Positions 10,975-49,634 of a stretch of 64,000 bases of DNA are shown piece after piece. The notes below the pieces were generated by a model, which was not told the DNA's origin, ran no database searches, and saw only the letters and a program-made list of their open reading frames with translations. Source of the stretch: Flavobacterium praedii (GTDB lineage Bacteria; Bacteroidota; Bacteroidia; Flavobacteriales; Flavobacteriaceae); the NCBI RefSeq assembly GCF_026810365.1, contig NZ_CP113948.1:2753001-2817000 (forward strand), read 5' to 3'. Made by a program: the position numbers and the translations under genes. The stretch's first letter is position 1. The number at the start of each line of letters is the position of its first letter.

Positions 10975-13900
10975 CTATTTTCTGTTCAAATACAAATATC
11001 CTGATTTCTCAAATGCATTATTGGCACTGTCTCTGTATTTCAGTATATAAAAATAGGTTCCTACCGGTAATTCTGATGATTTCTCTATGGTTACTCGACC
11101 TTCGGAAACTCCTTTAAAAGCCCTATCTTCATTATTGTAATGCTCGCGTTCGAATACTAAAACACCCCAACGGTTGAAGATCTCTATCGAATTCTCCGGA
11201 TAACATTCTAAGCCTTTTACATAAAACTTGTCATTGATCCCTGCCGAACCATCAGGTGACACTGCATTGAAGACTTCTATTGCACAGCCCGAAACACTCA
11301 GTACCGTTGGATTATCATCCACCAAATTCAACTCGTCCGATTTATCTTCTACTACTTTTCCGCTTGGTGCGGTACCATAAACAGTAGCTTGATTTGAAAT
11401 ACTTCCTAAATTAATATCTGATTGCTTAATAAAATACAAGCCCGAGAAATGTGTCGTACTGACTTCTCCTATGGCCAATGTTAATGGAGATCCTGACATG
11501 ATAACTCCTGGTAATGGATCACTAATAGTTACATTACTCAATGGTGTATTACCTGTATTGGTTATTTCAAAACTGTAGGTAATGGTTTCCCCTGGCTGTG
11601 CATATCCATCGTTGTTCTCATCCCTGAATTTCGCCGTTTTCACTAAAGCAATACTAGGCCTTTCTACTACAATAGTGATCGTGGCTTGACTGCAATTGCT
11701 AGGATTGGCTTTCTCACAAATGCTGTAATTTAAGCTATAGCTACCCCCTGGTGTATTGCCCAACACATTCAACAGCCCATCTGTTCCTATTGTGAAATTT
11801 GGACTTGGTGTCAATGTGATACTTACATCTGAAGCCTTAGCCGGCAATCCATTGATTGTGTCATTTGACAATACATTGAGAACTCCTGTTAATGCTTGAG
11901 TTCCATCTACTGTTCCTGCATCGTCATTGACCGCTAGAATATCGGCATAGGTTTTACAACTGATTCCAAAATCTAAATTCAAATTAACTTTTACTGATTC
12001 TGTAAACTGAGCGTACAAAATAGTATTGGTGGTTAAACCACAGTCAACATAACTTTTTGATTTTTCTGTACGCGCTTGTTTTAGTGTTCCGCTTGGCAAT
12101 ACTTTAACCAATCCAGAAGCTGACATCGCCTCAGAAGCTTGTTCAAAATTAGCTTCTTTTATAAACTCAATTTTATATTCTCCATAAGCTCCTTGTGGCG
12201 CTCTTGTTCTCCAATAGCCTTCAACTCCCATCGTTACGCTTCTGGAGAATCCATTAGGACCCGTTACAAATATATTAGGAACATTGGTGGTACCATTACC
12301 AAATCCTGCAGCGTTCAATTCTCCAGCATTTTGGATCCCTTTATAACTTCCATCGCCATTAAAATCAATCCATTCCCATTTACTGAAATCAATTACGCCA
12401 TTTGCATCTGGTATGTTTTTAGTCACAAGACCATCGTTATTGGCATCATACCACTCGTCTTGTAGCCCATTATTGTTCAAATCGTACCATACAAAATCAC
12501 CTAAAACTAATAAATCAGTTTTATTATATCCAAAATCAATCTTTTGATACTTACAATCTTCTACTTTTAATATCAAGAAACTTGGTGTTGTATTATACAA
12601 CTCTTGGGCCGCATTCAAATTCGCGTCTTGAACCTGGATTACATAATCCCCCGCTACCATTCCTGTAAATGAATAGCTGCCATCTGCTTTGGTAATACTC
12701 AACAAAATTGGACCGGTAGTAGTATTTATTGGTTTTAAAGTCACCGGAACATTTCCTAAGGGGGTATTAGTAAGCTCATTTTTAATTAAACCCGATATAG
12801 CTGTTGATAAACCACAACCAACTGTTACTGTAACTATAGCCGTATCACAATTATTTAGGTTTAATTTATCACAAATGGAATATGTCATTGTATATGTCCC
12901 AGACGGTGTAAAGGCTGCCATTTCAACTGTCCCATCTGATTTTAATGTCATAAAGCCCGTTGGATCAGCTGTGACTGTCGATATTAGTACATTGCTCAAA
13001 GTAGCTTTGGCCAAATCTACAGCATCATTATCCAATACATTTAATACCTCTTGAACTGAATTGCTGCTCAACAAAGATCCCGATAAATCATCAGCTGCAA
13101 ATATAACCGGTGGGGCAGGTAAAATAAAGACTACCTCTAATGTAATTGTAGCTGAAGTTGCATCAACAGCACCATTATTATCTGTTGCAGTAAATGTAAA
13201 TGTATCATTTCCTGTGAAACTTCCGCTTGGATCGTAGGTCAACAAAGCAACTTCTGCTGATGTCAACACTTGATTTAACGTTACTGCCGTTCCTGATAAA
13301 GCTAAAGTTCCGTTTGTTGGTAAGCTTAAAACTGTGTAAGTGGCTATTGTTCCGTCAGCATCTGCAGCTACCAAAATATGGATAGCTGTTGGTCCAGCAT
13401 TAGCTGATATATTAGTGTTAATATCATCAACCGCAACAGGCGCATCATTGACAGCTGTCACAGTAACAACGACATCGGCTGTATCGGTCAAAACACCATC
13501 GGTTAAAGTATACGTAATCGTTGGAACAACTCCATTGTAATTAGCAACGGGTACAAATGTAAGACTTCCATCAGCCAATATCGTAAGGCTTCCAACACTA
13601 GGAATCGTTACTGCTGATCCTACGGTTTGTAAGCCTGCAATTCCGGCAATTGTATATTCTTTTACTTCTAAAGTTGCTGAATCGATATCACTATCTAATC
13701 CTGCTGTTGCATCAGTGTCCGTGATCACATTGCCTGTAATGGAAACCGCATCTTCTAGCCCACTGTAAGCATTGTTTTGTGCTATTGGCGCATCATTTAC
13801 TGCTGTTACTGTAATTGTCAAAGTAGCTGTATTGGATACTAATCCTAAATTATCATTTACAGTGTAATTAATTGCAGTGGCTGTTCCGTTAAAGTTTAAT

Positions 13901-16900
13901 ACTGGGGTAAAAGTGACTACTCCTGTAGCAGCTACACTGTAGGTTCCTTCCCCTGTTACGGTGAATGTCGGTTGAATTCCTGCTGTAGCTGGGTCTAAAT
14001 CAACTGTCGCTACATCAATGGTTCCGTCAACATCGGTATCTAATCCTGCAGCATTGGTTGCTACATTGATTGTTACTGGAGTATCTTCGGTTGTTGTGGC
14101 GGTATCGTTATTGGCTATTGGCGCATCGTTTTCTGCTGTTACTGTAATTGTCAAAGTAGCCGTATTGGATACTAATCCTAAATTATCATTTACAGTGTAA
14201 TTAATTGCAGTGGCTGTTCCGTTAAAGTTTAATACTGGAGTAAAAGTGACTACTCCTGTAGCAGCTACACTGTAGGTTCCTTCCCCTGTTACGGTGAATG
14301 TCGGTTGAATTCCTGCTGTAGCTGGGTCTAAATCAACTGTCGCTACATCAATGGTTCCGTCAACATCGGTATCTAATCCTGAAACATTGGTTGCTACATT
14401 GATTGTTACTGGAGTATCTTCGGTTGTTGTGGCGGTATCGTTATTGGCTATTGGCGCATCATTTACTGCTGTTACTGTAATTGTCAAAGTAGCCGTATTG
14501 GATACTAATCCTAAATTATCATTTACAGTGTAATTAATTGCAGTGGCTGTTCCGTTAAAGTTTAATACTGGAGTGAAAGTGACTACTCCTGTAGCAGCTA
14601 CACTGTAGGTTCCTTCCCCTGTTACGGTGAATGTCGGTTGAATTCCTGCTGTAGCTGGGTCTAAATCAACTGTCGCTACATCAATGGTTCCGTCAACATC
14701 GGTATCTAATCCTGCAACATTGGTTGCTACATTGATTGTTACTGGAGTATCTTCGGTTGTTATGGCGGTATCGTTATTGGCTATTGGCGCATCATTTACT
14801 GCTGTTACTGTAATCGTCAAAGTAGCTGTATTGGATACTAATCCTAAATTATCATTTACAGTGTAATTAATTGCAGTGGCTGTTCCGTTAAAGTTTAATA
14901 CTGGAGTAAAAGTGACTACTCCTGTAGCAGCTACACTGTAAGTTCCTTCCCCTGTTACGGTGAATGTCGGTTGAATTCCTGCTGTAGCTGGGTCTAAATC
15001 AACTGTCACTACATCAATGGTTCCGTCAACATCGGTATCTAATCCTGCAGCATTGGTTGCTACATTGATTGTTACTGGAGTATCTTCGGTTGTTGTGGCG
15101 GTATCGTTATTGGCTACTGGCGCATCATTTACTGCTGTTACTGTAATTGTCAAAGTAGCCGTATTGGATACTAATCCTAAATTATCATTTACAGTGTAAT
15201 TAATTGCAGTGGCTGTTCCGTTAAAATTTAATACTGGGGTAAAAGTGACTACTCCTGTAGCAGCTACACTGTAGGTTCCTTCCCCTGTTACGGTGAATGT
15301 CGGTTGAATTCCTGCTGTAGCTGGATCTAAATCAACTGTCGCTACATCAATGGTTCCGTCAACATCGGTATCTAATCCTGCAACATTGGTTGCTACATTG
15401 ATTGTTACTGGAGTATCTTCGGTTGTTGTGGCGGTATCGTTATTGGCTATTGGCGCATCATTTACTGCTGTTACTGTAATTGTCAAAGTAGCCGTATTGG
15501 ATACTAATCCTAAATTATCATTTACAGTGTAATTAATTGCAGTGGCTGTTCCGTTAAAGTTTAATACTGGAGTGAAAGTGACTACTCCTGTAGCAGCTAC
15601 ACTGTAGGTTCCTTCCCCTGTTACGGTGAATGTCGGTTGAATTCCTGCTGTAGCTGGGTCTAAATCAACTGTCGCTACATCAATGGTTCCGTCAACATCG
15701 GTATCTAATCCTGCAACATTGGTTGCTACATTGATTGTTACTGGAGTATCTTCGGTTGTTATGGCGGTATCGTTATTGGCTATTGGCGCATCATTTACTG
15801 CTGTTACTGTAATTGTCAAAGTAGCCGTATTGGATACTAATCCTAAATTATCATTTACAGTGTAATTAATTGCAGTGGCTGTTCCGTTAAAGTTTAATAC
15901 TGGAGTGAAAGTGACTACTCCTGTAGCAGCTACACTGTAGGTTCCTTCCCCTGTTACAGTGAATGTCGGTTGAATTCCTGCTGTAGCTGGGTCTAAATCA
16001 ACTGTCGCTACATCAATGGTTCCGTCAACATCGGTATCTAATCCTGCAACATTGGTTGCTACATTGATTGTTACTGGAGTATCTTCGGTTGTTGTGGCGG
16101 TATCGTTATTGGCAATTGGCGCATCATTTACTGCTGTTACTGTAATTGTCAAAGTAGCCGTATTGGATACTAATCCTAAATTATCATTTACAGTGTAATT
16201 AATTGCAGTGGCTGTTCCGTTAAAGTTTAATACTGGAGTGAAAGTGACTACTCCTGTAGCAGCTACACTGTAGGTTCCTTCCCCTGTTACAGTGAATGTC
16301 GGTTGAATTCCTGCTGTAGCTGGGTCTAAATCAACTGTCGCTACATCAATGGTTCCGTCAACATCGGTATCTAATCCTGCAACATTGGTTGCTACATTGA
16401 TTGTTACTGGAGTATCTTCGGTTGTTGTGGCGGTATCGTTATTGGCAATTGGCGCATCATTTACTGCTGTTACTGTAATTGTCAAAGTAGCCGTATTGGA
16501 TACTAATCCTAAATTATCATTTACAGTGTAATTAATTGCAGTGGCTGTTCCGTTAAAGTTTAATACTGGAGTAAAAGTGACTACTCCTGTAGCAGCTACA
16601 CTGTAGGTTCCTTCCCCTGTTACGGTGAATGTCGGTTGAATTCCTGCTGTAGCTGGGTCTAAATCAACTGTCGCTACATCAATGGTTCCGTCAACATCGG
16701 TATCTAATCCTGCAACATTGGTTGCTACATTGATTGTTACTGGAGTATCTTCGGTTGTTGTGGCGGTATCGTTATTGGCAATTGGCGCATCATTTACTGC
16801 TGTTACTGTAATTGTCAAAGTAGCTGTATTGGATACTAATCCTAAATTATCATTTACAGTGTAATTAATTGCAGTGGCTGTTCCGTTAAAGTTTAATACT

Positions 16901-19900
16901 GGGGTAAAAGTGACTACTCCTGTAGCAGCTACACTGTAGGTTCCTTCCCCTGTTACGGTGAATGTCGGTTGAATTCCTGCTGTAGCTGGGTCTAAATCAA
17001 CTGTCGCTACATCAATGGTTCCGTCAACATCGGTATCTAATCCTGCAGCATTGGTTGCTACATTGATTGTTACTGGAGTATCTTCGGTTGTTGTGGCGGT
17101 ATCGTTATTGGCTATTGGCGCATCGTTTTCTGCTGTTACTGTAATTGTCAAAGTAGCCGTATTGGATACTAATCCTAAATTATCATTTACAGTGTAATTA
17201 ATTGCAGTGGCTGTTCCGTTAAAGTTTAATACTGGAGTAAAAGTGACTACTCCTGTAGCAGCTACACTGTAGGTTCCTTCCCCTGTTACGGTGAATGTCG
17301 GTTGAATTCCTGCTGTAGCTAGGTCTAAATCAACTGTCGCTACATCAATGGTTCCGTCAACATCGGTATCTAATCCTGCAACATTGGTTGCTACATTGAT
17401 TGTTACTGGAGTATCTTCGGTTGTTGTGGCGGTATCGTTATTGGCTACTGGCGCATCATTTACTGCTGTTACTGTAATTGTCAAAGTAGCTGTATTGGAT
17501 ACTAATCCTAAATTATCATTTACAGTGTAATTAATTGCAGTGGCTGTTCCGTTAAAGTTTAATACTGGGGTAAAAGTGACTACTCCTGTAGCAGCTACAC
17601 TGTAGGTTCCTTCCCCTGTTACGGTGAATGTCGGTTGAATTCCTGCTGTAGCAGGGTCTAAATCAACTGTCGCTACATCAATGGTTCCGTCAACATCGGT
17701 ATCTAATCCTGCAACATTGGTTGCTACATTGATTGTTACTGGAGTATCTTCGGTTGTTATGGCGGTATCGTTATTGGCTACTGGCGCATCATTTACTGCT
17801 GTTACTGTAATTGTCAAAGTAGCCGTATTGGATACTAATCCTAAATTATCATTTACAGTGTAATTAATTGCAGTGGCTGTTCCGTTAAAGTTTAATACTG
17901 GAGTGAAAGTGACTACTCCTGTAGCAGCTACACTGTAGGTTCCTTCCCCTGTTACGGTGAATGTCGGTTGAATTCCTGCTGTAGCTGGGTCTAAATCAAC
18001 TGTCGCTACATCAATGGTTCCGTCAACATCGGTATCTAATCCTGCAACATTGGTTGCTACATTGATTGTTACTGGAGTATCTTCGGTTGTTGTGGCGGTA
18101 TCGTTATTGGCTATTGGTGCATCGTTTTCTGCTGTTACTGTAATTGTCAAAGTAGCTGTATTGGATACTAATCCTAAATTATCATTTACAGTGTAATTAA
18201 TTGGAGTGGCTGTTCCGTTAAAGTTTAATACTGGAGTAAAAGTGACTACTCCTGTAGCAGCTACACTGTAGGTTCCTTCGCCTGTTACGGTGAATGTCGG
18301 TTGAATTCCTGCTGTAGCTGGGTCTAAATCAACTGTCGCTACATCAATGGTTCCGTCAACATCGGTATCTAATCCTGCAACATTGGTTGCTACATTGATT
18401 GTTACTGGAGTATCTTCGGTTGTAGTTGCGGTATCGTTATTGGCTACTGGTGCATCATTTACTGCATTTACTGTGATCACAACATCAGCTGTATCGGTTA
18501 CTCCATCTGTATCTACTATCACATATGGAAACGTTACTGATCCATTATAGTTTGCATTTGGGGTGAAACTAATCACTCCTGCCGCTGTAATTGTAACTGT
18601 CCCGTTGGTAACTGCAATAACTTGTGCAATGCCTGGTGTCAAGGCTACGCCATTGATGGAAACTATACTTACAGCACCTTCTAAATCACTATCTGCAATA
18701 CCTGTAGTTAATGGGGTTAAGGCTACTACCGTATCTTCATCCGTTGTGTAGGCATCATCAACAGCTACTGGTGCATCATTCATACCTGTAATCGTAATAT
18801 CAATAATAGCAACATCTGTAAATGTACCATCAGACATAGTATAATTAAAGTAATCATGTGCGGTTGCTCCTGCTGCTAATGTTTGGGCATTGTTCGCAAC
18901 ATAAGTATAGCTACCGTTTGTATTTATGATAAGATCTCCATAAGTTCCTGTCAATATTGAACCAAGGGTTCCTGCTGTACCTGAACCTTCGGTATTTCCT
19001 AATCGAATTGCAGTTACTGTTTTGGTCGATCCAGTATCAACATCGGTATCATTACCCAATACACCATTTGCTACAACAGTTAATGTAGCATCTTCATCAA
19101 CACTACCAGCATCATTTACGGCTACTGGCGCATCGTTCATTCCTATAATAGTTATATCGATAATAGCAATATCTGAATCTGTACCATCAGACATCGTATA
19201 GTTGAAGTAATCATGTGCAGTTGATCCTGCTGCTAATGCTTGGGCATTGTTCGCAACATACGTATAACTTCCGTTTGTATTTATGATAAGATCTCCATAA
19301 GTTCCTGTCAATGTTAAACCAAGGGTGCCTGCCGTACCCGATCCTTCTGTATTCCCTAATCGAATTGCCGTTACTGTTTTGGTAGCTCCAGTATCAACAT
19401 CGGTATCATTACCCAATACACCATTTGCTACAACAGTTAATGTAGCGTCTTCATCAACACTACCGGCATCGTTTGCCGCTATTGGCGCATCATTCATTCC
19501 TGTAATCGTAATATCAATAATAGCAACATCTGAATCTGTACCATCAGACATCGTATAGTTGAAGTAATCATGTGCAGTTGATCCTGCTGCTAATGCTTGG
19601 GCATTGTTCGCAACATACGTATAACTTCCGTTTGTATTTATGATAAGATCTCCATAAGTTCCTATCAATGTTAAACCAAGGGTGCCTGCCGCACCTGATC
19701 CTTCTGTATTCCCTAATCGAATTGCCGTTACTGTTTTGGTAGCTCCAGTATCAACATCGGTATCATTACCCAATACACCATTTGCTACAACAGTTAATGT
19801 AGCATCTTCATCAACACTACCGGCATCGTTTACTGCCACTGGTGCATCATTTCTCCCTGTAATAGTAATATCGATAATAGCAACATCGGTATCTGTACCA

Positions 19901-22605
19901 TCAGACATCGTATAGTTGAAGTAATCATGTGCAGTTGCTCCTGCTGCTAATGCTTGGGCATTGTTCGCAACATACGTATAACTTCCATTGGCATTCAAAG
20001 TAAGTGAACCATAAGTCCCTACTAGTATGGAACCAAGGATTCCTGCTGTACCTGAACCTTCGGTATTTCCTAAACGAATTGCTGTTACTGCTTTTGTTGC
20101 TCCTGTATCAACATCGGTATCATTACCCAAAACACCATTAGCAACAACGGTTAAAGTAGCATCTTCGTTTACACTTCCTGCATTGTTTACCGCAACTGGA
20201 GCATCGTTGACTGCATTTACAACAAAAGTTATATCTGCATTATCACATGCCCCTGAAGTATCACATAATCTATAAGTTAATACTGCCGTACCATTATAAT
20301 TATTCGCTGGATTAAATGTTACAATTCCTGTTGCAATAGCCAAACTCCAAACTCCTGTTGTATTAGTAAATGTAGTTTGAATTCCAGCTAAACTTGTATC
20401 CATGTCAACAGTAAACTGTCCTAACGTATTTACTGGTGCTGTGGGATTTCCTTCAATATCGGTATCATTGGTAATTATATTTATAGTCCCATTTACCCCA
20501 TCTTCCGTCAACGAAGAGGCATTTTGATCATTATTAGCTACGGGAGGAAAATTTAATAAAGTTAAATTAGCAGATCCGGATGTCTCACTTCCACAAATAT
20601 TACCGATTTGAGTTACAAGTACTCTATAATCATAATTTTTCATTCCTAACGTAACTCCCGTCAATGTTAAATTAGCAGTTTGAGAATTAGAATAAATTCC
20701 TCCGTCAACAATGTATATCCAAGTGGTACCGCCATCGGCACTTTCCTGCCATTTATAATCAGTACCTCCAGTTACAGAAAAAGTTACTGAACCACCAACA
20801 TTTGTAGATTGATCAGTTGGATTAGTCACCATAACAGTTACAGAGTTTGAATACGTTCCAGCATAAGAAGCGGCTATTACCTTCCCATCTGCAGCATTTA
20901 CTGCTGGCAAACCTGAACCATATTGCCCATTATCTATTCCTGACAGATTTCCATCGGCATTGTTTGAAGCATAATATTCATTGGCATCAGAACAACCATC
21001 ACCATCTGAATCTAAGTCGAATTGGTTTAAAATACCATCTAAATCAGTATCATACCTATCATCAATTCCATCGCTATTTGTATCCACAAAACCAGAAGTA
21101 GTTGGATCAAAATAATTTGGAATTTTATCTGCGTTTAAGTCTCCAAAAGGGTCTGGTAATATACCATTTTCAACGGCATCTAAAATCCCGTCATTATCAT
21201 CATCTAAGTCACAGTTTTCTGGAACTCCATCCGTATCAGTATTCCCTACATAATTTGGATTTTCAATTGGAATATATAATGAAATAGAACCACCTGCTCC
21301 TCCATCCTTGGAATCATTTCGGTAACCATTTAAATGTTGACCCCCAATACCTCCAGTAGTAGTATAAGTAACATTTGCTGGGATAGTCGCTTTTGAATAC
21401 AACAAAACACCACCACCACCACCACCACCTGGCCCGTGGTATGTATTTGTATTTAAATCTTGACCATCTCCGCCATTTATAGTAACACTAAGATTTGTAG
21501 TATATTTTATCACTTTTAAGACAACAGTTCCTCCTGCTCCTCCACCGCCTCCACCATCTGGAGCTCCAACTGGATTTACCGCTAAAGGTGACAATCCGTT
21601 GGCACTTATAACATGTCCATTTCCAATAATTTCATCTGCAAAAATGATTACAATTCCTCCACCATCTGCAGCAGTAGACGGATTATTTGTAGAAACCCAA
21701 CCTGGACCACCAGCACCACCAAAAAAGGCCTTATCTTGAGCTAAATAAGAAGTCATTGCATAACCACCAACTCCTCCAGCATTTGCTCCCCCCGCATTAC
21801 ACCAACGCTTTCCTCCATCTCCACCAGCGCCATAATTGGATCCTCCACCACCTCCAGAATCACCTGAGACACCAGATCCACCACCATTTGCCCTTGGAGC
21901 TCTACCTCTATCTGTTAATGGATCAAACAAAGCGATTCCTTCCCCTCTAGTATAAGATGAAACATTAGTATCAGGCAAAACAAATTGAGTAGCTGGATTA
22001 ATAGTACAATTGTCAGGAGTTCCATTAATAGGCATTTGAATCCCTTTAAATCCACGTCCATTTACATCAATATCTGCATTAAAAGTTATTGTTTTAGCAC
22101 TCAAGGCTACAACTCCACCTGTTCCTGTAGCATCATTCCAATCGACTGAAGTTAAAGTTCCATTTATATTAGCTGAATTGTAATTTGGAATTCTTACGAT
22201 TTGCACTTTACCGATAACGTTATAAGATCGAATTAAAGGATAACGAGGCGTTATTACATTTCCTGCAATACTTGCTATTTCAAAAAATTCGTAATTACCA
22301 GCATCATTAATAGCTGATATACTTCCTCCTGTTGCATCGTTTAACGTACTGACTGAAGCCCCTTTCATTTGAATAATAAGTGCTTTGTCTCCAATTGAAA
22401 AAGCAGAGGCATCCGTAACTGTAATTGTATGCGTACAAGTCAAGTCACAAGCTCCACAGACAGGTAAATTTAAACTAGTTACAGCTGTATAAGAATTTAC
22501 AACTCCTGAAATATTAGTTTGAGAAATAGTTTTATTACTTAGAAGAAACAAAAATAAAAGCACAGAAAAAATTGCTTTTTTCTTAAAAAAAGTAGTTTTA
22601 TGCAT
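10975..22605 (-). CDS. Giant type IX-secreted surface adhesin (3876 residues) with tandem cadherin-like repeats
   Basis: The order from the N-terminus is as follows. A signal peptide (about 1-29). A beta domain and a Gly-rich segment (about 200-430). Thrombospondin type-3 calcium-binding repeats (about 455-550, for example DLDDDNDGILDAVENG). An Ig-like domain (about 590-680). Four 119-residue repeats starting NDAPVAVNDAGSVDEDATL (about 797-1275). Fourteen 111-residue repeats starting NDAPIANNDTATTTEDTPV (about 1380-2940). Further cadherin-like domains. SdrD-type B domains (GDFVWYDLNNNGLQDE, about 3370). A DUF11 domain (about 3655). Last, a type-B gliding-motility C-terminal domain (NSIEIFNRWGVLVFERE) that serves as the type IX secretion signal. 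It is probably a cell-surface filament for adhesion or gliding, like SprB. Asp-rich loops suggest calcium-stiffened repeats. Confidence 0.93.
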   Translation of the reverse strand: MHKTTFFKKKAIFSVLLFLFLLSNKTISQTNISGVVNSYTAVTSLNLPVCGACDLTCTHTITVTDASAFSIGDKALIIQMKGASVSTLNDATGGSISAINDAGNYEFFEIASIAGNVITPRYPLIRSYNVIGKVQIVRIPNYNSANINGTLTSVDWNDATGTGGVVALSAKTITFNADIDVNGRGFKGIQMPINGTPDNCTINPATQFVLPDTNVSSYTRGEGIALFDPLTDRGRAPRANGGGSGVSGDSGGGGGSNYGAGGDGGKRWCNAGGANAGGVGGYAMTSYLAQDKAFFGGAGGPGWVSTNNPSTAADGGGIVIIFADEIIGNGHVISANGLSPLAVNPVGAPDGGGGGGAGGTVVLKVIKYTTNLSVTINGGDGQDLNTNTYHGPGGGGGGGVLLYSKATIPANVTYTTTGGIGGQHLNGYRNDSKDGGAGGSISLYIPIENPNYVGNTDTDGVPENCDLDDDNDGILDAVENGILPDPFGDLNADKIPNYFDPTTSGFVDTNSDGIDDRYDTDLDGILNQFDLDSDGDGCSDANEYYASNNADGNLSGIDNGQYGSGLPAVNAADGKVIAASYAGTYSNSVTVMVTNPTDQSTNVGGSVTFSVTGGTDYKWQESADGGTTWIYIVDGGIYSNSQTANLTLTGVTLGMKNYDYRVLVTQIGNICGSETSGSANLTLLNFPPVANNDQNASSLTEDGVNGTINIITNDTDIEGNPTAPVNTLGQFTVDMDTSLAGIQTTFTNTTGVWSLAIATGIVTFNPANNYNGTAVLTYRLCDTSGACDNADITFVVNAVNDAPVAVNNAGSVNEDATLTVVANGVLGNDTDVDTGATKAVTAIRLGNTEGSGTAGILGSILVGTYGSLTLNANGSYTYVANNAQALAAGATAHDYFNYTMSDGTDTDVAIIDITITGRNDAPVAVNDAGSVDEDATLTVVANGVLGNDTDVDTGATKTVTAIRLGNTEGSGAAGTLGLTLIGTYGDLIINTNGSYTYVANNAQALAAGSTAHDYFNYTMSDGTDSDVAIIDITITGMNDAPIAANDAGSVDEDATLTVVANGVLGNDTDVDTGATKTVTAIRLGNTEGSGTAGTLGLTLTGTYGDLIINTNGSYTYVANNAQALAAGSTAHDYFNYTMSDGTDSDIAIIDITIIGMNDAPVAVNDAGSVDEDATLTVVANGVLGNDTDVDTGSTKTVTAIRLGNTEGSGTAGTLGSILTGTYGDLIINTNGSYTYVANNAQTLAAGATAHDYFNYTMSDGTFTDVAIIDITITGMNDAPVAVDDAYTTDEDTVVALTPLTTGIADSDLEGAVSIVSINGVALTPGIAQVIAVTNGTVTITAAGVISFTPNANYNGSVTFPYVIVDTDGVTDTADVVITVNAVNDAPVANNDTATTTEDTPVTINVATNVAGLDTDVDGTIDVATVDLDPATAGIQPTFTVTGEGTYSVAATGVVTFTPVLNFNGTATPINYTVNDNLGLVSNTATLTITVTAENDAPIANNDTATTTEDTPVTINVATNVAGLDTDVDGTIDVATVDLDPATAGIQPTFTVTGEGTYSVAATGVVTFTPVLNFNGTATAINYTVNDNLGLVSNTATLTITVTAVNDAPVANNDTAITTEDTPVTINVATNVAGLDTDVDGTIDVATVDLDPATAGIQPTFTVTGEGTYSVAATGVVTFTPVLNFNGTATAINYTVNDNLGLVSNTATLTITVTAVNDAPVANNDTATTTEDTPVTINVATNVAGLDTDVDGTIDVATVDLDLATAGIQPTFTVTGEGTYSVAATGVVTFTPVLNFNGTATAINYTVNDNLGLVSNTATLTITVTAENDAPIANNDTATTTEDTPVTINVATNAAGLDTDVDGTIDVATVDLDPATAGIQPTFTVTGEGTYSVAATGVVTFTPVLNFNGTATAINYTVNDNLGLVSNTATLTITVTAVNDAPIANNDTATTTEDTPVTINVATNVAGLDTDVDGTIDVATVDLDPATAGIQPTFTVTGEGTYSVAATGVVTFTPVLNFNGTATAINYTVNDNLGLVSNTATLTITVTAVNDAPIANNDTATTTEDTPVTINVATNVAGLDTDVDGTIDVATVDLDPATAGIQPTFTVTGEGTYSVAATGVVTFTPVLNFNGTATAINYTVNDNLGLVSNTATLTITVTAVNDAPIANNDTATTTEDTPVTINVATNVAGLDTDVDGTIDVATVDLDPATAGIQPTFTVTGEGTYSVAATGVVTFTPVLNFNGTATAINYTVNDNLGLVSNTATLTITVTAVNDAPIANNDTAITTEDTPVTINVATNVAGLDTDVDGTIDVATVDLDPATAGIQPTFTVTGEGTYSVAATGVVTFTPVLNFNGTATAINYTVNDNLGLVSNTATLTITVTAVNDAPIANNDTATTTEDTPVTINVATNVAGLDTDVDGTIDVATVDLDPATAGIQPTFTVTGEGTYSVAATGVVTFTPVLNFNGTATAINYTVNDNLGLVSNTATLTITVTAVNDAPVANNDTATTTEDTPVTINVATNAAGLDTDVDGTIDVVTVDLDPATAGIQPTFTVTGEGTYSVAATGVVTFTPVLNFNGTATAINYTVNDNLGLVSNTATLTITVTAVNDAPIANNDTAITTEDTPVTINVATNVAGLDTDVDGTIDVATVDLDPATAGIQPTFTVTGEGTYSVAATGVVTFTPVLNFNGTATAINYTVNDNLGLVSNTATLTITVTAVNDAPIANNDTATTTEDTPVTINVATNVSGLDTDVDGTIDVATVDLDPATAGIQPTFTVTGEGTYSVAATGVVTFTPVLNFNGTATAINYTVNDNLGLVSNTATLTITVTAENDAPIANNDTATTTEDTPVTINVATNAAGLDTDVDGTIDVATVDLDPATAGIQPTFTVTGEGTYSVAATGVVTFTPVLNFNGTATAINYTVNDNLGLVSNTATLTITVTAVNDAPIAQNNAYSGLEDAVSITGNVITDTDATAGLDSDIDSATLEVKEYTIAGIAGLQTVGSAVTIPSVGSLTILADGSLTFVPVANYNGVVPTITYTLTDGVLTDTADVVVTVTAVNDAPVAVDDINTNISANAGPTAIHILVAADADGTIATYTVLSLPTNGTLALSGTAVTLNQVLTSAEVALLTYDPSGSFTGNDTFTFTATDNNGAVDATSATITLEVVFILPAPPVIFAADDLSGSLLSSNSVQEVLNVLDNDAVDLAKATLSNVLISTVTADPTGFMTLKSDGTVEMAAFTPSGTYTMTYSICDKLNLNNCDTAIVTVTVGCGLSTAISGLIKNELTNTPLGNVPVTLKPINTTTGPILLSITKADGSYSFTGMVAGDYVIQVQDANLNAAQELYNTTPSFLILKVEDCKYQKIDFGYNKTDLLVLGDFVWYDLNNNGLQDEWYDANNDGLVTKNIPDANGVIDFSKWEWIDFNGDGSYKGIQNAGELNAAGFGNGTTNVPNIFVTGPNGFSRSVTMGVEGYWRTRAPQGAYGEYKIEFIKEANFEQASEAMSASGLVKVLPSGTLKQARTEKSKSYVDCGLTTNTILYAQFTESVKVNLNLDFGISCKTYADILAVNDDAGTVDGTQALTGVLNVLSNDTINGLPAKASDVSITLTPSPNFTIGTDGLLNVLGNTPGGSYSLNYSICEKANPSNCSQATITIVVERPSIALVKTAKFRDENNDGYAQPGETITYSFEITNTGNTPLSNVTISDPLPGVIMSGSPLTLAIGEVSTTHFSGLYFIKQSDINLGSISNQATVYGTAPSGKVVEDKSDELNLVDDNPTVLSVSGCAIEVFNAVSPDGSAGINDKFYVKGLECYPENSIEIFNRWGVLVFEREHYNNEDRAFKGVSEGRVTIEKSSELPVGTYFYILKYRDSANNAFEKSGYLYLNRK
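13790..18470 (-). repeat. Fourteen tandem 333-bp repeats inside the adhesin gene
   Basis: A 333-bp unit (111 codons) recurs 14 times with only a few differences per copy; matching positions are spaced exactly 333 bp from 14018 to 18347. The small variants are shared in a mosaic way: the copies near 14684 and 15683 share one variant set, and those near 14018 and 17015 another. This points to recent unequal exchange or gene conversion. Confidence 0.95.
18770..20215 (-). repeat. Four tandem 357-bp repeats inside the adhesin gene
   Basis: A second unit of 357 bp (119 codons) is present about four times. It is recognisable by the codons for NDAPVAVNDAGSVDEDATL and by the 357-bp spacing of 19325 and 19682. 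The copies are more diverged from each other than the 333-bp units. Confidence 0.88.
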
Positions 22606-23549: not shown

Positions 23550-23566
23550 GCAGAGAGGAAGGGATT
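23550..23566 (+). other. attL core (17 bp)
   Basis: GCAGAGAGGAAGGGATT is identical to 49618-49634, the discriminator, acceptor and T-arm end of tRNA-Ser. It is the chromosome-side remnant of the tRNA 3' end after integration. Confidence 0.85.
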
Positions 23567-31844: not shown

Positions 31845-31876
31845 TTGCAAAACAATACTTTTTTTGTGTACGTTTG
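31845..31876 (+). promoter_or_regulatory. Promoter of leader RNA 1
   Basis: TTG (31845-31847), 21 bp, then TACGTTTG (31869-31876) matches the Bacteroidota -33/-7 consensus. The same elements with the same 21-bp spacing precede leader RNA 2. Transcription would start within a few bases of the ATG-like 31879. Confidence 0.75.
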
Positions 31877-31878
31877 TA

Positions 31879-32057
31879 ATGCTAAATAACGTTACCGAGG
31901 AGAAATCCTAAAAATTTTTATCGTAAAAAAATCATAAGCAAACCGTTGCTATGGTGTCGGGTTCTCGAAAGAGCCGAAAATTTTCTCTCCTTTGGGAGCG
32001 TTGTTTAGCACACCTAAGGCAACGGCCTTGCTATTTATTAACGTTAAATTTTTCAAA
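31879..32057 (+). ncRNA. Structured leader RNA, copy 1 (start-codon-masking switch candidate)
   Basis: The 5' arm TGCTAAATAACG (31880-31891) pairs with CGTTGTTTAGCA (31999-32010), and CCGAGGAGA (31895-31903) pairs with TCTCCTTTGG (31986-31995). CCGTTGC (31943-31949), GGTG (31953-31956) and AGCAA (31937-31941) pair with segments just after that arm (32011-32032), making a pseudoknot. A GAAA-capped hairpin lies at 31958-31976. The arm at 31999-32010 is also the exact complement of 32059-32070, the start of the next gene. The core at 31916-31981 is identical to copy 2, and the arms covary between the copies. I do not recognise the RNA family. Confidence 0.75.
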
Positions 32058-32324
32058 ATGCTAAACAACGAAAAAAACACCCCAGTTAAAATAACCGATG
32101 AGTTATTGTACCAAATTCCCGAAACTTTATTGGGAGAATTTATGGAAGCCCGCAAAGACAAAGAATTACTTAAGGGCTTAAACTTGATGTTCCAGAACTA
32201 TTTTCAATCCAAGCGTTATTTTGATGACGAAAACTTCAACCACGAAGCCGTAACCGAGTGCTATCACTTTTGCTTTTATTTTTTGAACCACAAAGAATTG
32301 TTTAACCCTAAAACTGTAGCGTGA
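32058..32324 (+). CDS. Small protein controlled by leader RNA 1 (paralogue of 47190-47453)
   Basis: The 88-residue acidic protein begins MLNNEKNTPVK and ends FNPKTVA; the second copy begins MLNKEKNTEE and ends FNPNTVA. The middle shows a shared pattern (GL.LMFQNYF and EAVTECYHFCFYFLNHKELF). No known domain is seen. I use the ATG at 32058, not the longer frame from 31992, because the latter would translate through the structured RNA and lacks a counterpart with similar sequence. The next gene starts on the last base of its stop. Confidence 0.75.
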   Translation: MLNNEKNTPVKITDELLYQIPETLLGEFMEARKDKELLKGLNLMFQNYFQSKRYFDDENFNHEAVTECYHFCFYFLNHKELFNPKTVA

Positions 32325-32698
32325 TGAAAGCAAAATCAATGATATTTGTAAGTGAAGCTCAAAAAGGAAAAAGTGCCTACGAGTTGCATTTTAGATTGTT
32401 GCAACAGCAAGAAAAAGGATGTGAGCATATTGTTATGGATGGCGAAAAAGTTTCTAAACGATTTTTTGATATGCAATTCGAGTTAAAAAAATGGCATCCC
32501 AGCGCCAATTTAATTACTATTGTCGATGTCGCCAAAAATTTTGATTACACCAAGCTTTATAACCTAATAACCAACGGCTATACCAATGTTTTTGGGCGTA
32601 CAATTATCCCTCAATTTTTGATAACTACCGAGCATTTACCCAAAAGAAACGACCCCTTTGATACTTTATTTGTGGTTTATGAGATAAAAAAAATATAA
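32324..32698 (+). CDS. Hypothetical protein downstream of the RNA-controlled gene
   Basis: The 124-residue protein starts at an ATG sharing the last base of the preceding stop (a GTG at 32321 is an alternative). It has a mixed alpha/beta pattern (SMIFVSEAQKGKSAYELHF, NLITIVDVAKNFDY, FDTLFVVYEI) reminiscent of a small nucleotide-binding fold, but no true Walker A is present. Coupling to the 88-residue gene suggests a joint function. Confidence 0.6.
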   Translation: MKAKSMIFVSEAQKGKSAYELHFRLLQQQEKGCEHIVMDGEKVSKRFFDMQFELKKWHPSANLITIVDVAKNFDYTKLYNLITNGYTNVFGRTIIPQFLITTEHLPKRNDPFDTLFVVYEIKKI

Positions 32699-40818: not shown

Positions 40819-41307
40819 ATGAGCAATACAATAGCTAAAATAGGAATAGGAATAGGGATTTTTGCCATTGCAATAAACTTATTCAAAAACAAGGCACAAC
40901 AACTGGTTAGCCAGTTTGAGGACATTGTTATAATTCCTGTAGGTTTAAAAAACTTTAATGCAAAATGGAATAATGGCAAACCTAGCGCAACATTCAGTAT
41001 TGATTTGAATTTTATCAATCCAACGCCAACTGTTTTTAGTGCTGATGGAGTGATTTTAACTCTTAAAAAAATAGTTTTCTATGACCAGAACGATAATTAT
41101 TTAGGGGAAACAATTTTAAATATGACATCGTTAAACATCCCAGCAAAATCAAAAACAATTGTAAGGAACATTCCTATTGTGTTGGACTTGAAAACGACAT
41201 TGACAAATGCACTTGCAATAATTAACAGCGGAAATTTTAGTTTGGATAAAATCAAAACAGAAGCCGTAATAAATATTTTAGGAATAGAATATAAAACAAA
41301 GCAATAA
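40819..41307 (+). CDS. Membrane-anchored beta-sandwich protein (LEA/Ig-like)
   Basis: The 162-residue protein has an N-terminal hydrophobic helix (IAKIGIGIGIFAIAINLF) and a beta-sandwich-like domain with FSIDLNFINPTPTVFSADGV, similar in pattern to LEA14-type domains. The gene overlaps the polyvalent protein gene by 1 bp. Probably a virion membrane protein. Confidence 0.55.
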   Translation: MSNTIAKIGIGIGIFAIAINLFKNKAQQLVSQFEDIVIIPVGLKNFNAKWNNGKPSATFSIDLNFINPTPTVFSADGVILTLKKIVFYDQNDNYLGETILNMTSLNIPAKSKTIVRNIPIVLDLKTTLTNALAIINSGNFSLDKIKTEAVINILGIEYKTKQ

Positions 41308-43961
41308 TGAGTATCGCAAAGGAATTTAACGCACTTAACGGGATGATAGTAACAAGGAAAGACCTTGAAAAACTATTGGAAAAAGCTGAAAAAGAGCGAC
41401 ACACCATAATTTCAAAACGTGTTATTCGGGTTCTTGAAGCTTTTAAAGACGATACTTTTTTGATTGAACTCAGAAACTTAGTAGAGCCTTATGGATTGAA
41501 TGGGGTGGATATTGATGGAAATACCTCTTTGCTCGATGGTTTGGAGTTTATTCCCGAAACCAAAGACATAGGACTTGGGAAACCAGTTTCGCCAAACGAG
41601 ATTTACGATATGGTTACGCAACGAATGATTGATTTAATCAAAGAAGCGAACAAAGGCGATTATAAGAGGGCTTGGAAAGAAGAGGGTTATTTAATTCCGT
41701 ACAATTTCGTTTCAAAAAAAGCGTACAGAGGTGTAAACGTGTTTATGTTGTCGCCTATGTTCGGGCTTTTAGACAATCCCTACTATCTAACTTTTAACCA
41801 AATACAGGAAAAAGGCGGAAAACTAAAAAAAGGTAGCCATGCACATAAAGTGGTTTATTTTTCGACTTTCAACAAAGAGTATTCCGATGCAGAAATTGAA
41901 AAACTGAACACTATAATAGTGGACAATAAGCTTGAAAAAGGAGACGAAAAAACCATTTTTTTTCTGAAGTATTACAACGTTTTTAACGGTGCGGACATTG
42001 AGGGAATTGATTTTGATTTAGATAATTTCCCTCTGCAGGGAAAAGTCGTAAACAATGAGGTTGAAACTGGCAACAATGAAACAATTGACATTGCCGAAGC
42101 GATAGTAAAAAATTATCCTAAGCCACAACCCGAAATTTTATTTTTAGGAAGCGGAGCTTCATATATTCCCGATGTGGATATGGTAAAAATGCCAGATATT
42201 TCAAAATTCAAGACTTCACAGGATTTTTACAGAACACTTTTTCACGAATTAAGCCACAGTACAGGACACGAAAGCAGGCTAAAAAGACCGTTTAGAAATC
42301 CTTTTGGCACACCCGAATATGCTTTTGAGGAATTGATTGCAGAGTTTGGAGCGGTTTTTTTATCGGCTCAAGCAGGGATTATGTTTTATACTAATAAAAA
42401 TCACGCTGGCTATTTAAAAGGTTGGAATGAAGTGTTACTTCCAAATTTAGAAAACGACAACCGTTTTTTAATGAAAGCCAGTAGTCAAGCGCAAAAAGCA
42501 ACTGATTTTATTTTACAACCCGATGCAAAGGGTGATTTCTTGTTTATGAAAGATGGAAATTCTCAAAAACAAATTCAAAATCTCAAAAGCAGCAAGCCAA
42601 AAGCAAAAAAAAGCAACCAATTAGAGTTGTTTGAGGGGTTGAAAGGGACTGCAAAAACCGTTGACACTATTGCTTTTAATAAACAGATTCTGGAAGCAAA
42701 GCGAAATGGGTTTTCAAAAATTAAAATTTTTCAGTTAGGAAGAACAAAATCGGAATTATGGAAAATTACAGGTAACAATAAAATTACATTGTCGGGTGCA
42801 ATTATAAAAAAGGCGATGACAAATAAAGATAAATCCCATAATGTAAAATGGGAACACCTGATAAATTTGCCAGACAATATTAATGAGCCAGTTGCTATTT
42901 TTAAAAGCGAAAATAAAATAGGTGGTTTTGTAGTCCTTACAGAAGTAAAAAGCCATTTAGAAAAGCCTTTTATGGTTGCAATTCACACAAGTAACGATAT
43001 TAAAATAAACGACATTAGAAGTATTTATTCTCGTACCGGTTTAGTTCATTATAAAAATTGGTATAAAAAAGGATTGCTTTTGTATGGAAATGAAAAAAGC
43101 GAATTATTTAAACTGATAGTGGGTACAATTCCCACCAAGTTTAAAAACCCGCTTACTAGCCACAAAGATACAAAAAAAGGTTTGAACGCTCCAAAAACCA
43201 TTGCAAAAACTGTTGCAAAGGAAAAAAAGCCAGTTGCAAAAGGAATTTTAAACACAAATTCCCTTGCCTATAAAATGGCTAACAAGCCTACAAATGTTGA
43301 TTTTTTTAAAATTGAGAATAAAGACATATCAGACTTTTTGGGGCAAATAGAGCATAAGCAAAAAGAAAGTGTTGTGATCTCGCTTACTGGTGGTCAGGGT
43401 TCAATGAAAACCCGAATGTGTTTTCAGTTTATGAATGCTTTGGCACAAAATTATAAGGTAGGACACGCAAGTATTGAAGAGCATCCCGAAAGCAATTTAT
43501 ATTTTGACAAAGCAGAGCAATATTTGAATACAAAGGCTTTGAATAATATAGAAGCTCCCGAAATAAAAACCATTGCTGAACTCGAAAATCTGATAAAGAA
43601 AAACGATGTCATTGTGATTGACAGTTTTACCAAAATGCAAGAAATGCACAAAGGTTTTGAAGTCGATAAAGATTTACGCAAAAAGTATGATGGCAAACTC
43701 TTTATTGTGATTTTTCAGCAAACCACAGACGGTAAAATGCGTGGGGGAAGCAAAAGCCAGTTTGATGCCGACATTGTTTTGTTTACGGAAAAGAAAGACG
43801 ACTACCGAGAAAATTACATTTATGCGGACAAAAACCGTTACCAAAACAAACCTCTTGACGGCTTGAAATTCAACATTTTTAATAAAAAGTTACAAGGTAA
43901 CACACCCGAAACAACGGGAGAACCAACAGAGAAAAGAAAATTATCATTTATAGTGAGTTAA
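41307..43961 (+). CDS. Polyvalent protein: ArdC-like domain, zincin protease, MuF-C-like domain, RadA-like ATPase
   Basis: The 884-residue protein appears to be a fusion. Residues about 110-200 match the ArdC N-terminal region (AYRGVNVFMLSP, KGSHAHKVVYF). About 300-370 is a zincin metalloprotease with HELSHSTGH (near 311) and downstream FEELIAEFG. About 450-610 resembles the MuF-C-type domain of phage polyvalent proteins (EPVAIFKSENKIGGFVVLTEV). From about 665 there is a RecA/RadA-like ATPase with Walker A GGQGSMKT (near 694), Walker B VIVIDS (near 770) and GGSKSQFDADIVL. ArdC proteins counter restriction. Such proteins can be injected with DNA, and the gene stands in the late operon. Confidence 0.75.
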   Translation: MSIAKEFNALNGMIVTRKDLEKLLEKAEKERHTIISKRVIRVLEAFKDDTFLIELRNLVEPYGLNGVDIDGNTSLLDGLEFIPETKDIGLGKPVSPNEIYDMVTQRMIDLIKEANKGDYKRAWKEEGYLIPYNFVSKKAYRGVNVFMLSPMFGLLDNPYYLTFNQIQEKGGKLKKGSHAHKVVYFSTFNKEYSDAEIEKLNTIIVDNKLEKGDEKTIFFLKYYNVFNGADIEGIDFDLDNFPLQGKVVNNEVETGNNETIDIAEAIVKNYPKPQPEILFLGSGASYIPDVDMVKMPDISKFKTSQDFYRTLFHELSHSTGHESRLKRPFRNPFGTPEYAFEELIAEFGAVFLSAQAGIMFYTNKNHAGYLKGWNEVLLPNLENDNRFLMKASSQAQKATDFILQPDAKGDFLFMKDGNSQKQIQNLKSSKPKAKKSNQLELFEGLKGTAKTVDTIAFNKQILEAKRNGFSKIKIFQLGRTKSELWKITGNNKITLSGAIIKKAMTNKDKSHNVKWEHLINLPDNINEPVAIFKSENKIGGFVVLTEVKSHLEKPFMVAIHTSNDIKINDIRSIYSRTGLVHYKNWYKKGLLLYGNEKSELFKLIVGTIPTKFKNPLTSHKDTKKGLNAPKTIAKTVAKEKKPVAKGILNTNSLAYKMANKPTNVDFFKIENKDISDFLGQIEHKQKESVVISLTGGQGSMKTRMCFQFMNALAQNYKVGHASIEEHPESNLYFDKAEQYLNTKALNNIEAPEIKTIAELENLIKKNDVIVIDSFTKMQEMHKGFEVDKDLRKKYDGKLFIVIFQQTTDGKMRGGSKSQFDADIVLFTEKKDDYRENYIYADKNRYQNKPLDGLKFNIFNKKLQGNTPETTGEPTEKRKLSFIVS

Positions 43962-46457: not shown

Positions 46458-46661
46458 ATGGAAATCACTATAAAAATTGACCAACGTAAGAAAGAAGCTA
46501 GGGCATTGCTTGAGTTTTTAAAAAACCTACCATTTGTTGAATTAAATATAGAAAAACCACGATACAACCCCGAAACCGAAAAAGCAATACAAGATGTTCG
46601 TAACGGCAATACGTTCAAGGTAAAAAACTCGAAACAACTTTTTGCTGAATTGGGAATATGA
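46458..46661 (+). CDS. Antitoxin of a RelBE/YafQ-type locus
   Basis: The 67-residue protein has an N-terminal strand-helix segment (MEITIKIDQRKKEARALLEF) and an acidic/basic C-terminal tail ending KQLFAELGI that would wrap the toxin. It overlaps the toxin gene by 4 bp, the usual arrangement. It should neutralise the toxin and repress the shared promoter. Confidence 0.75.
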   Translation: MEITIKIDQRKKEARALLEFLKNLPFVELNIEKPRYNPETEKAIQDVRNGNTFKVKNSKQLFAELGI

Positions 46662-46933
46662 GTTATAAAATTGAATATACAGGCAAAATAAAAAAAGATA
46701 TTAAACTAGCCATAAAAAGAAATCTTAATATACAACTATTCAAAAATGTAGTTGAAATACTTGAAAGCGAAGGCAAACTTCCAGCCAAATACAAGCCTCA
46801 TATTCTAAAAGGAAATTATGCAGGTTTTTGGGAATGCCACATACAACCCGATTGGTTGCTAATTTGGGAACAAAATGACGAAATTAAGCTAATTTCATTA
46901 ACCCGAACAGGAACACACAGCGACTTATTTTAG
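46658..46933 (+). CDS. YafQ-family mRNA interferase toxin
   Basis: The 91-residue protein matches the YafQ group of RelE-type ribosome-dependent endoribonucleases: KPHILKGNYAGFWECHIQPDWLLIWE followed by LISLTRTGTHSDLF, read in parts. The conserved His and the C-terminal Arg-Thr-Gly-x-His are present, so it should be active. Its stop lies inside the stem of a terminator. Confidence 0.9.
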   Translation: MSYKIEYTGKIKKDIKLAIKRNLNIQLFKNVVEILESEGKLPAKYKPHILKGNYAGFWECHIQPDWLLIWEQNDEIKLISLTRTGTHSDLF

Positions 46934-46971: not shown

Positions 46972-47003
46972 TTGCAATCGTATTCTTTTTTTACATACGT
47001 TTG
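46972..47003 (+). promoter_or_regulatory. Promoter of leader RNA 2
   Basis: TTG (46972-46974), 21 bp, then TACGTTTG (46996-47003). Both elements and the spacing equal those of leader RNA 1. Confidence 0.75.
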
Positions 47004-47005
47004 TA

Positions 47006-47189
47006 ATGCTAAATAAAGATTACCGTTAGGAGAAATCCTCACAACTTTTATCGTAAAAAAATCATAAGCAAACCGTTGCTATGGTGTCGGGTTCTCGAAA
47101 GAGCCGAAAATCAATTCTCCTTACGGGGTCTTTGTTTAGCACACCTAAGGCAACGGCCTTGCTATTTATTAACGTTAAATTTTTTCAAG
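47006..47189 (+). ncRNA. Structured leader RNA, copy 2
   Basis: TGCTAAATAAAGA (47007-47019) pairs with TCTTTGTTTAGCA (47129-47141), and CCGTTAGGAGAA (47023-47034) pairs with TTCTCCTTACGG (47115-47126) with one mismatch. Compared with copy 1, base pairs change on both sides: C-G becomes A-U and A-U becomes U-A. The 66-nt core (47046-47111) and the 3' part with the pseudoknot partner are unchanged. TCTTTGTTTAGCA is also the exact complement of 47191-47203, the start of the next gene. Confidence 0.75.
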
Positions 47190-47453
47190 ATGCTAAACAA
47201 AGAAAAAAACACAGAAGAAAATCAAGACTATGATTTTACCACACCGCTAGGGCGTGAATTTTTAGAACAAAACCGCCACGGCGACCGCCTAATTACAAAA
47301 GGGTTGGAAGTAATGTTTATCAACTATTTTAAGGACAATCGCTACATAGGCACCAATGGCAGTGATGCCGAAGCCGTGATGGAAGCCTACCACGTATGCA
47401 ACTATCTTGTTGCAAACAAAAAGCAATTGTTTAACCCTAATACTGTAGCGTGA
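47190..47453 (+). CDS. Small protein controlled by leader RNA 2 (paralogue of 32058-32324)
   Basis: The 87-residue protein starts MLNKEKNTEENQ and ends FNPNTVA. It shares with copy 1 the pattern KGLEVMFINYFKDNRY and EAVMEAYHVCNYLVANKKQLF. Known domains are not seen. The start at 47190 was preferred over the long upstream frame that would run through the RNA. Confidence 0.75.
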   Translation: MLNKEKNTEENQDYDFTTPLGREFLEQNRHGDRLITKGLEVMFINYFKDNRYIGTNGSDAEAVMEAYHVCNYLVANKKQLFNPNTVA

Positions 47454-47668
47454 TGAGTATTCAAGAAGAACAAATAGCGACATTAAGAAAACTATGTGAA
47501 AACTACAGAGAAGTTTTCTTGCTTCAAAACGAAAGAATTGCAAAACTAGAAAAACGCAACGCAGAACCCCAAACCATGAAAGAACTTTTTGCGGAAAGAG
47601 ACAAACTGCGCCTAGAAAAAATGAAAGCCCTTATCCCTGATTTTTTTAATAACCGAATACTTAATTAA
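47453..47668 (+). CDS. Small coiled-coil protein
   Basis: The 71-residue protein (ATG sharing a base with the preceding stop; a GTG at 47450 is possible) is a charged coiled coil (IATLRKLCENYREVFLLQNE). It resembles in size and type the coiled-coil protein of the left unit (32701-32883). Confidence 0.6.
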   Translation: MSIQEEQIATLRKLCENYREVFLLQNERIAKLEKRNAEPQTMKELFAERDKLRLEKMKALIPDFFNNRILN

Positions 47669-49617: not shown

Positions 49618-49634
49618 GCAGAGAGGAAGGGATT
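49618..49634 (+). other. attR core (17 bp)
   Basis: GCAGAGAGGAAGGGATT is identical to attL (23550-23566). It covers the 3' end of the tRNA-Ser gene, so integration restores a complete tRNA. Confidence 0.85.

Follow-up and report, generated by a model that had tools for sequence, protein, structure and literature searches.

A probable C4-type antisense RNA module directed at start codons, in a Flavobacterium phage-like element and in related loci

Two small genes of Flavobacterium praedii, both located in a window of 64,000 nucleotides (the whole stretch of DNA analysed here), are preceded by leaders in which one short segment can pair either with the beginning of the leader itself or with the start codon of the gene, raising the question of what kind of element this is and how such a segment might act. 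The sequence-only reading of this DNA had described the arrangement as a two-state translation switch. As it had claimed, the segment of copy 1, CGTTGTTTAGCA (31999-32010), is the exact reverse complement of the start region at 32059-32070 and also pairs, with one G-U, with the 5' segment 31880-31891 (TGCTAAATAACG); in copy 2, TCTTTGTTTAGCA (47129-47141) is likewise the exact reverse complement of 47191-47203, at the start of its own gene. What had been called the middle arm is the antisense arm of a C4-type RNA; the presumed RNA 5' end is an upstream copy of the target, named a1 in the following, and the start codon is the target.

Two C4 leaders in a phage-like element

Both units lie on the forward strand. 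In copy 1, a TAnnTTTG promoter box (TACGTTTG, 31869-31876) is followed by a1 at 31880-31903, where the predicted pairing extends past the core (31880-31891) to about 31903; by an AGGA-GAAA-TCCT mini-hairpin 3' of a1 (31898-31909), invariant in all 15 sequences of alignment A3, each of which matches a pattern containing part of this motif; by the C4 fold (31937-32034) with its arm, here of the b' type; and by the target gene of 88 aa (32058-32324), whose stop overlaps the ATG of a second gene of 124 aa (TGATG; 32324-32698) that matched no Pfam family. Copy 2 carries the box TACGTTTG at 46996-47003, a1 at 47007-47034 with its core at 47007-47019, the C4 fold at 47067-47164, a target gene of 87 aa at 47190-47453 and, again overlapping its stop, a second gene of 71 aa at 47453-47668. 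Since the two ATGs are found at 32058 and 47190, the target in the window spans from the U of the AUG into codon 5.

When the start regions of the 106 ORFs of the window (ATG ORFs of at least 60 aa) were compared with the 180 nt upstream of each, the longest exact matches belonged to the two C4 genes, with 13 and 12 nt, the next one reaching 10 nt; when the copy-1 leader was randomised 20,000 times by a first-order Markov model, 5 of the resulting sequences attained a 12-nt match. It had also been argued that three segments changed together between the copies. Coevolution does hold family-wide, as described below, while the contrast between the two copies comes down to 2-4 positions, since the first 10 target letters (TGCTAAACAA) are common to both; the argument is carried by the family-wide data and not by the comparison of copy 1 with copy 2.

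In Rfam terms, both leaders are c4-2 RNAs (RF02944, clan CL00128), with scores of 44.1 bits at 31941-32029 and 44.8 bits at 47071-47160, above the gathering score of 41 bits; this clan includes the P1/P7 C4 family as well, and the source of c4-2 is reportedly the work of Weinberg and others of 2017. No match to RF01695 was listed at E up to 1, in a search that showed only the best of overlapping clan members, and Rfam matched no known riboswitch or thermometer at the window leaders. A sub-threshold match of the leader to MIR9408 was rejected, since it mirrors just the a1:arm pairing. The fold itself is established computationally by covariation: in an alignment of 14 sequences, the very one from which the fold was derived, 93.4% of the cells were paired and two-sided changes occurred at 16 of 24 pairs, a result found in 0 of 500 shuffles; three of the four helices covary and helix 2 never varies.

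The two units are held by an integrated phage-like element of 26 kb (23550-49634), bounded by a 17-bp direct repeat, GCAGAGAGGAAGGGATT (23550-23566 and 49618-49634), which is the 3' end of tRNA-Ser; the element encodes an integrase and an HTH_3 regulator. They are the only c4 copies of this type in their genome, where one other perfect 12-nt arm target was found, gene-internal and away from any start. Other features of the window are a YafQ-type toxin gene (Pfam, 1e-32; 46658-46933) directly before the copy-2 unit, an 884-aa protein (41307-43961) with ArdC N-terminal, zincin-like and MuF C-terminal domains, and a 3876-aa ORF on the reverse strand (10975-22605), probably a large repetitive protein, with evenly spaced opposite-strand ORFs at a period of 333 nt.

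The target proteins of copies 1 and 2 are 48% identical and matched no Pfam, PHROG or NCBIfam family; one near relative of the 88-aa protein was found (P0002, 74% identity), with Gln as its second residue. Five weak matches to this protein in the genus (L127-L131) were discarded as apparently unrelated frames of 268-280 aa, in which neither of the two C4 strings looked for was present; the sole real matches of that homologue search were the window's own two. An AlphaFold2 model of the target protein (pLDDT 52, built from three sequences) was likewise set aside.

Coevolution of arm, start codon and upstream copy

Matches to c4-2 at E up to 0.001 were present in 74 of 398 Flavobacterium genomes, 71 of them over the cut-off. 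A covariance model of the window subtype built here, R1, matched in 72 of the 398 genomes of the genus, the lower-scoring matches including canonical c4-2 loci, and in 5 of the 397 genomes of a family sample, two of which belong to the genus (the genome of the window and G025); the remaining three matches are a unit of the window type (L164), one that looks canonical (L165) and one with no C4 (L166). A pattern search returned 68 contigs, of which 17 were judged real units and the rest chance, the comparison covering the single best match of a 27-nt stretch of arm and hairpin. From these sources 112 loci were examined (19 pattern matches and 93 R1 matches) and 99 could be parsed, which include near-duplicates and contain 44 distinct arm/target pairs. 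Eighty of the 99 come from R1, a model blind to a1 and to the start codon, so that the complementarity of these two was not selected for in those loci; the pattern behind the other 19 fixes the arm letters GCA.

Loss of the complementarity to the start codon in homologues, which the sequence-only reading had named as a refutation, was looked for, and the outcome favoured that reading: the complementarity was kept in all 99 parsed loci. In every one of them the arm can pair fully with codon 2 as well as with the last two letters (U and G) of the AUG, across six codons (CAA 56, ACA 22, TCA 10, CTA 5, ACT 5 and CAC 1; L085 and L149 were read from a second ATG in this count, and for L157 the ATG used was the wrong one, although the probable real start matches too). 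The match between codon 2 and arm averaged 3.0 of 3 positions versus 1.66 after shuffling (0 of 10,000 shuffles), and proteins that are otherwise almost the same have Gln, Ser or Thr as their second residue, the arm matching in each case. The whole start match is 12-13 nt long in the window copies versus 5-9 nt in the other loci. A few of the 13 skipped loci are without a start-codon match: in L180, L190 and L228 the start codon does match by eye (a parser miss or a broken gene); in L207 the target lies a little 5' of the ATG, as it does in the viral contig L234; no start-codon match was found for the orphan cores L162/L193 (one locus), L172 and L188; L165, L226 and L227 resemble the canonical type, L166 is unlike C4, and L156 was not located.

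An upstream copy of 7 nt was present in 95 of the 99 loci and, counting distinct pairs, in 41 of 44 versus 7.9 after shuffling, with a maximum of 18. The window copies miss this 7-nt criterion because of their G-U, and in L091 and L144 a1 and codon 3 have changed and the arm did not follow. Across the parsed loci, the proposed link between arm and start codon is conserved, and the three segments coevolve. A TAnnTTTG-like promoter box lies 4-5 nt before a1 in 96 of the 99 loci, window copies included, a raw count in AT-rich DNA that accepted TAnnTTYG or TAnnTTT[AC]; for L091 and L144, two of the three misses, no a1 had been detected by the script. The position of the box suggests that leader and gene are on one transcript, with its 5' end at a1.

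In canonical c4-2 the core is flanked by two target copies just before a conserved 77-aa gene. Over 49 of 53 such loci (four were without a start), 40 of them distinct, the loop/target match was 7.1 nt versus 4.8 shuffled and the upstream-copy match 7.25 versus 5.7, in both cases with 0 of 10,000 shuffles. Canonical and window types have the same fold and the same order of upstream copy, C4, target and small gene, and in both the arm covaries with both targets; however, the canonical type sets a hairpin-loop and TAGGA-type segments against the stretch just 5' of the AUG of the 77-aa gene, whereas the window type lays a continuous arm on AUG and codon 2 and is followed by other small genes. The window leaders and their relatives are a C4 subtype aimed at the start codon itself.

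In most canonical units (L003-L057) a1 is also followed immediately by an ATG, some 20 nt ahead of the C4 core, so that the entire initiation region is mimicked. The idea of an upstream ORF that extends from it across the canonical C4 cores was dropped, as such ORFs use two frames and have inconsistent stops. In two genomes, c4-2 cores occur in tandem, about 120 and 180 nt apart from start to start (L009/L026 and L010/L028).

Target genes of relatives and comparable RNAs

In relatives the module stands before other small proteins, for which no homology to the window targets was detected; profile comparison found no homology among the window targets, a 92-aa type and the canonical 77-aa type. 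Bro-N and KilA-N domains, which mark antirepressors, are found among these targets. Examination of 18 viral contigs gave 10 real units, six of which precede Bro-N or KilA-N genes; four of the six are over the Pfam cut-off, and L245 and L062 are below it, L062 being judged by its twin L098. For the proteins of L231, L232, L233 and L245 this domain search used the N-terminal 150 residues. Three further viral pattern contigs (L058, L059, L061) were judged chance. In genomes of the genus, L210 matches Bro-N at 3.8e-25 and L197 does so weakly. The available part of PMC8198154 describes C4 as controlling an antirepressor in P1, and by analogy the Bro-N/KilA-N targets fit that role; the antirepressor link belongs to the relatives, the window targets matching no family. 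Directly upstream of the C4 unit before the Bro-N gene, L210 also contains an Rfam RT-17 match (144-226; 40.6 bits, cut-off 40.4) and, below cut-off, an RT-14 RNA (122-217), possibly a reverse-transcriptase element adjoining the C4 unit.

In P1/P7 C4 (RF01695, acting on icd and ant), the target at the gene consists of two separate segments, a and b, the segment a1b1 is an upstream copy of the target, RNase P cuts at the foot of the closing stem, and the mature RNA is about 77 nt long and represses in trans as an immunity function. The window type resembles this system in its C4-like fold, in forming the leader of a small gene, in pairing at the gene start and, for its viral relatives, perhaps also in antirepressor-type targets. 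It has an antisense segment complementary to the initiation region downstream, on what is probably the same transcript, and the upstream target copy in the 95 loci mentioned above. For the a1b1 segment itself, PMC2864571 uses the label c4-a1b1. According to the accessible portion of PMC5320573, b' of P1/P7 C4 partly covers the ribosome-binding site and a' binds upstream of that site; in the window type, conversely, the start codon and codon 2 are covered, and the host is Flavobacterium. The same portion presents the C4-like sRNAs of Acinetobacter baumannii as multi-copy, with variable antisense segments per genome, a feature in common with the family described here; it names no confirmed targets for them, whereas most units of the window family carry a covarying target. 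Generic 5'-UTR translation switches also govern access to the start by alternative pairing, but in the window type the specificity segment is common to three places. Start-codon targeting was not described in the available parts of the literature searched on c4-2, C4 antisense, Bacteroidetes prophage and P1 immunity, and the source paper of c4-2 could hold part of it.

Mode of action and competing explanations

The reading that we favour, with a probability of roughly 80%, is that each site is a C4-type antisense unit blocking translation initiation, with a1 perhaps serving as a decoy; the block would probably act mainly in trans, after processing has separated the RNA from a1. Transcription from the TAnnTTTG box would start at a1 and proceed through the C4 fold with its arm into the small-gene mRNA. 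The arm would cover codon 2 and all but the first letter of the AUG (extending as far as codon 5 for the window copies), so that no ribosome could start, and the overlapping second gene would be silenced together with the target gene. Being on the same RNA and the stronger partner, a1 could hold the arm while attached, as a decoy or timer; once a1 is removed, the free C4 part would shut its own and sister mRNAs.

Folding energies bear on this scheme. In the 97 loci that were folded (two of the 99, without an a1 match, were left out), the arm pairs more strongly with a1 than with the start in all 97, with a mean of -17.0 versus -7.7 kcal/mol, the a1 stretch being the longer one (34 vs 20 nt); processing or another step would thus have to remove or outlast a1. 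Pairing of arm and start is predicted at about -17.4 kcal/mol in the window copies, and at -10.9 kcal/mol at best in the other loci. The holding of the arm by a1 is the weakest step of the scheme and is not generally predicted, since pairing of the arm with a1 appears in the full-leader minimum free energy fold of no more than 32 of the 97 loci and the C4 closing stem is open in both predicted states of the window copies, as folded without pseudoknots.

Trans action is hinted at by the copies that reside in one genome and by orphan cores. Among 81 fetched loci from 60 genomes, 15 of which have two or more, and with orthology ignored, co-resident copies had a common codon-2 class in 3 of 28 pairs versus 9.2 after shuffling (60 of 10,000 shuffles at or below); the contrast becomes weaker when longer arm words are compared, with 2 of 28 versus 5.2 (788 of 10,000) for words of 8 nt and 0 of 28 versus 1.9 (1,333 of 10,000) for words of 12 nt. 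In three cases (L193/L162, L206/L188 and L172) the gene of an ACA-class unit is followed by an orphan C4 core whose arm is of the ACT class; for L172 the fetched stretch included no more than the final letters of the arm of that unit. The two window copies themselves have one codon-2 class in common, and their cross-pairing is predicted at -12.2 and -13.4 kcal/mol, 4-6 kcal/mol weaker than their own pairing; they are not cleanly orthogonal according to these models, and some cross-regulation is likely.

The switch proposed by the sequence-only reading, in which a single RNA alternates in cis between a1:arm (open) and arm:start (masked) with no separate small RNA, appears unlikely as a general explanation. 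For the window copies the predicted order of states agrees with it: the minimum free energy fold has the arm on a1 (-54.7 in copy 1 and -57.7 in copy 2, the latter being the unforced value, as the forced a1 pairs of copy 2 are one base off), the arm-on-start state follows at -53.0 and -52.9, that is 1.7 and 4.8 kcal/mol away, and in folds of the leader lacking a1 the arm pairs in cis with the start codon. However, the masked state is predicted for the window copies alone: the arm pairs with the start codon in none of the 97 loci when a1 is present and in 2 of 97 when it is absent, these two being the window copies, so that mutually exclusive folds of similar energy are not conserved in the relatives. 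A cis switch also leaves the specificity differences of co-resident copies and the orphan cores unexplained, and the C4 of P1/P7 is a processed RNA, as stated in the available part of PMC5320573. Such a switch is thus possible, on predicted energies, in the window copies, and is not a shared property of the family. Somewhat less probable still is that a1 is the working target, so that C4 stops or destabilises the transcript early, at its 5' end, with the pairing to the start being secondary; the stronger a1 pairing in all 97 loci, obtained with the longer a1 stretch, and the location of a1 at the presumed RNA 5' end speak for it, but the tracking of the arm by codon 2 in 99 of 99 loci, despite the change in the protein, would then need a selective reason of its own.

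That the repeats work as DNA, namely as operators of a repressor, would account for three related copies close to a promoter; it is nevertheless very improbable, given covariation in three of four helices, the C4-type Rfam assignment and an arm that strictly complements codon 2. Least credible of all, to the point of being contradicted, is an origin by chance or by recent duplication of the gene start: a1 does resemble a copy of the gene start, yet across the 44 distinct pairs the inverse arm changes in step with both copies, and chance gave a match of this length for one leader at the rate of 5 in 20,000 reported above.

The antisense reading can be extended to the family as a whole, an extension that we hold tentatively and at somewhat less than even odds: the start-codon antisense RNAs of flavobacteria and their phages may make up a large family that acts in trans and serves as RNA immunity tags, in which the RNA would dictate residue 2 of the controlled protein, each transcript would have its own decoy at the 5' end, co-resident copies would diversify and so limit cross-talk, and orphan cores would silence foreign units. 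As for what the present results mean, an Rfam motif of Flavobacterium gains a testable antisense function with named target codons, and a link emerges, in such viral contigs, between C4-type RNAs and genes of the antirepressor type. The family also presents a case in which the specificity of RNA-RNA pairing, and not the protein, apparently determines a codon and hence an amino acid. Should the action in trans be true, this would amount to an RNA-based heteroimmunity with at least six codon classes.
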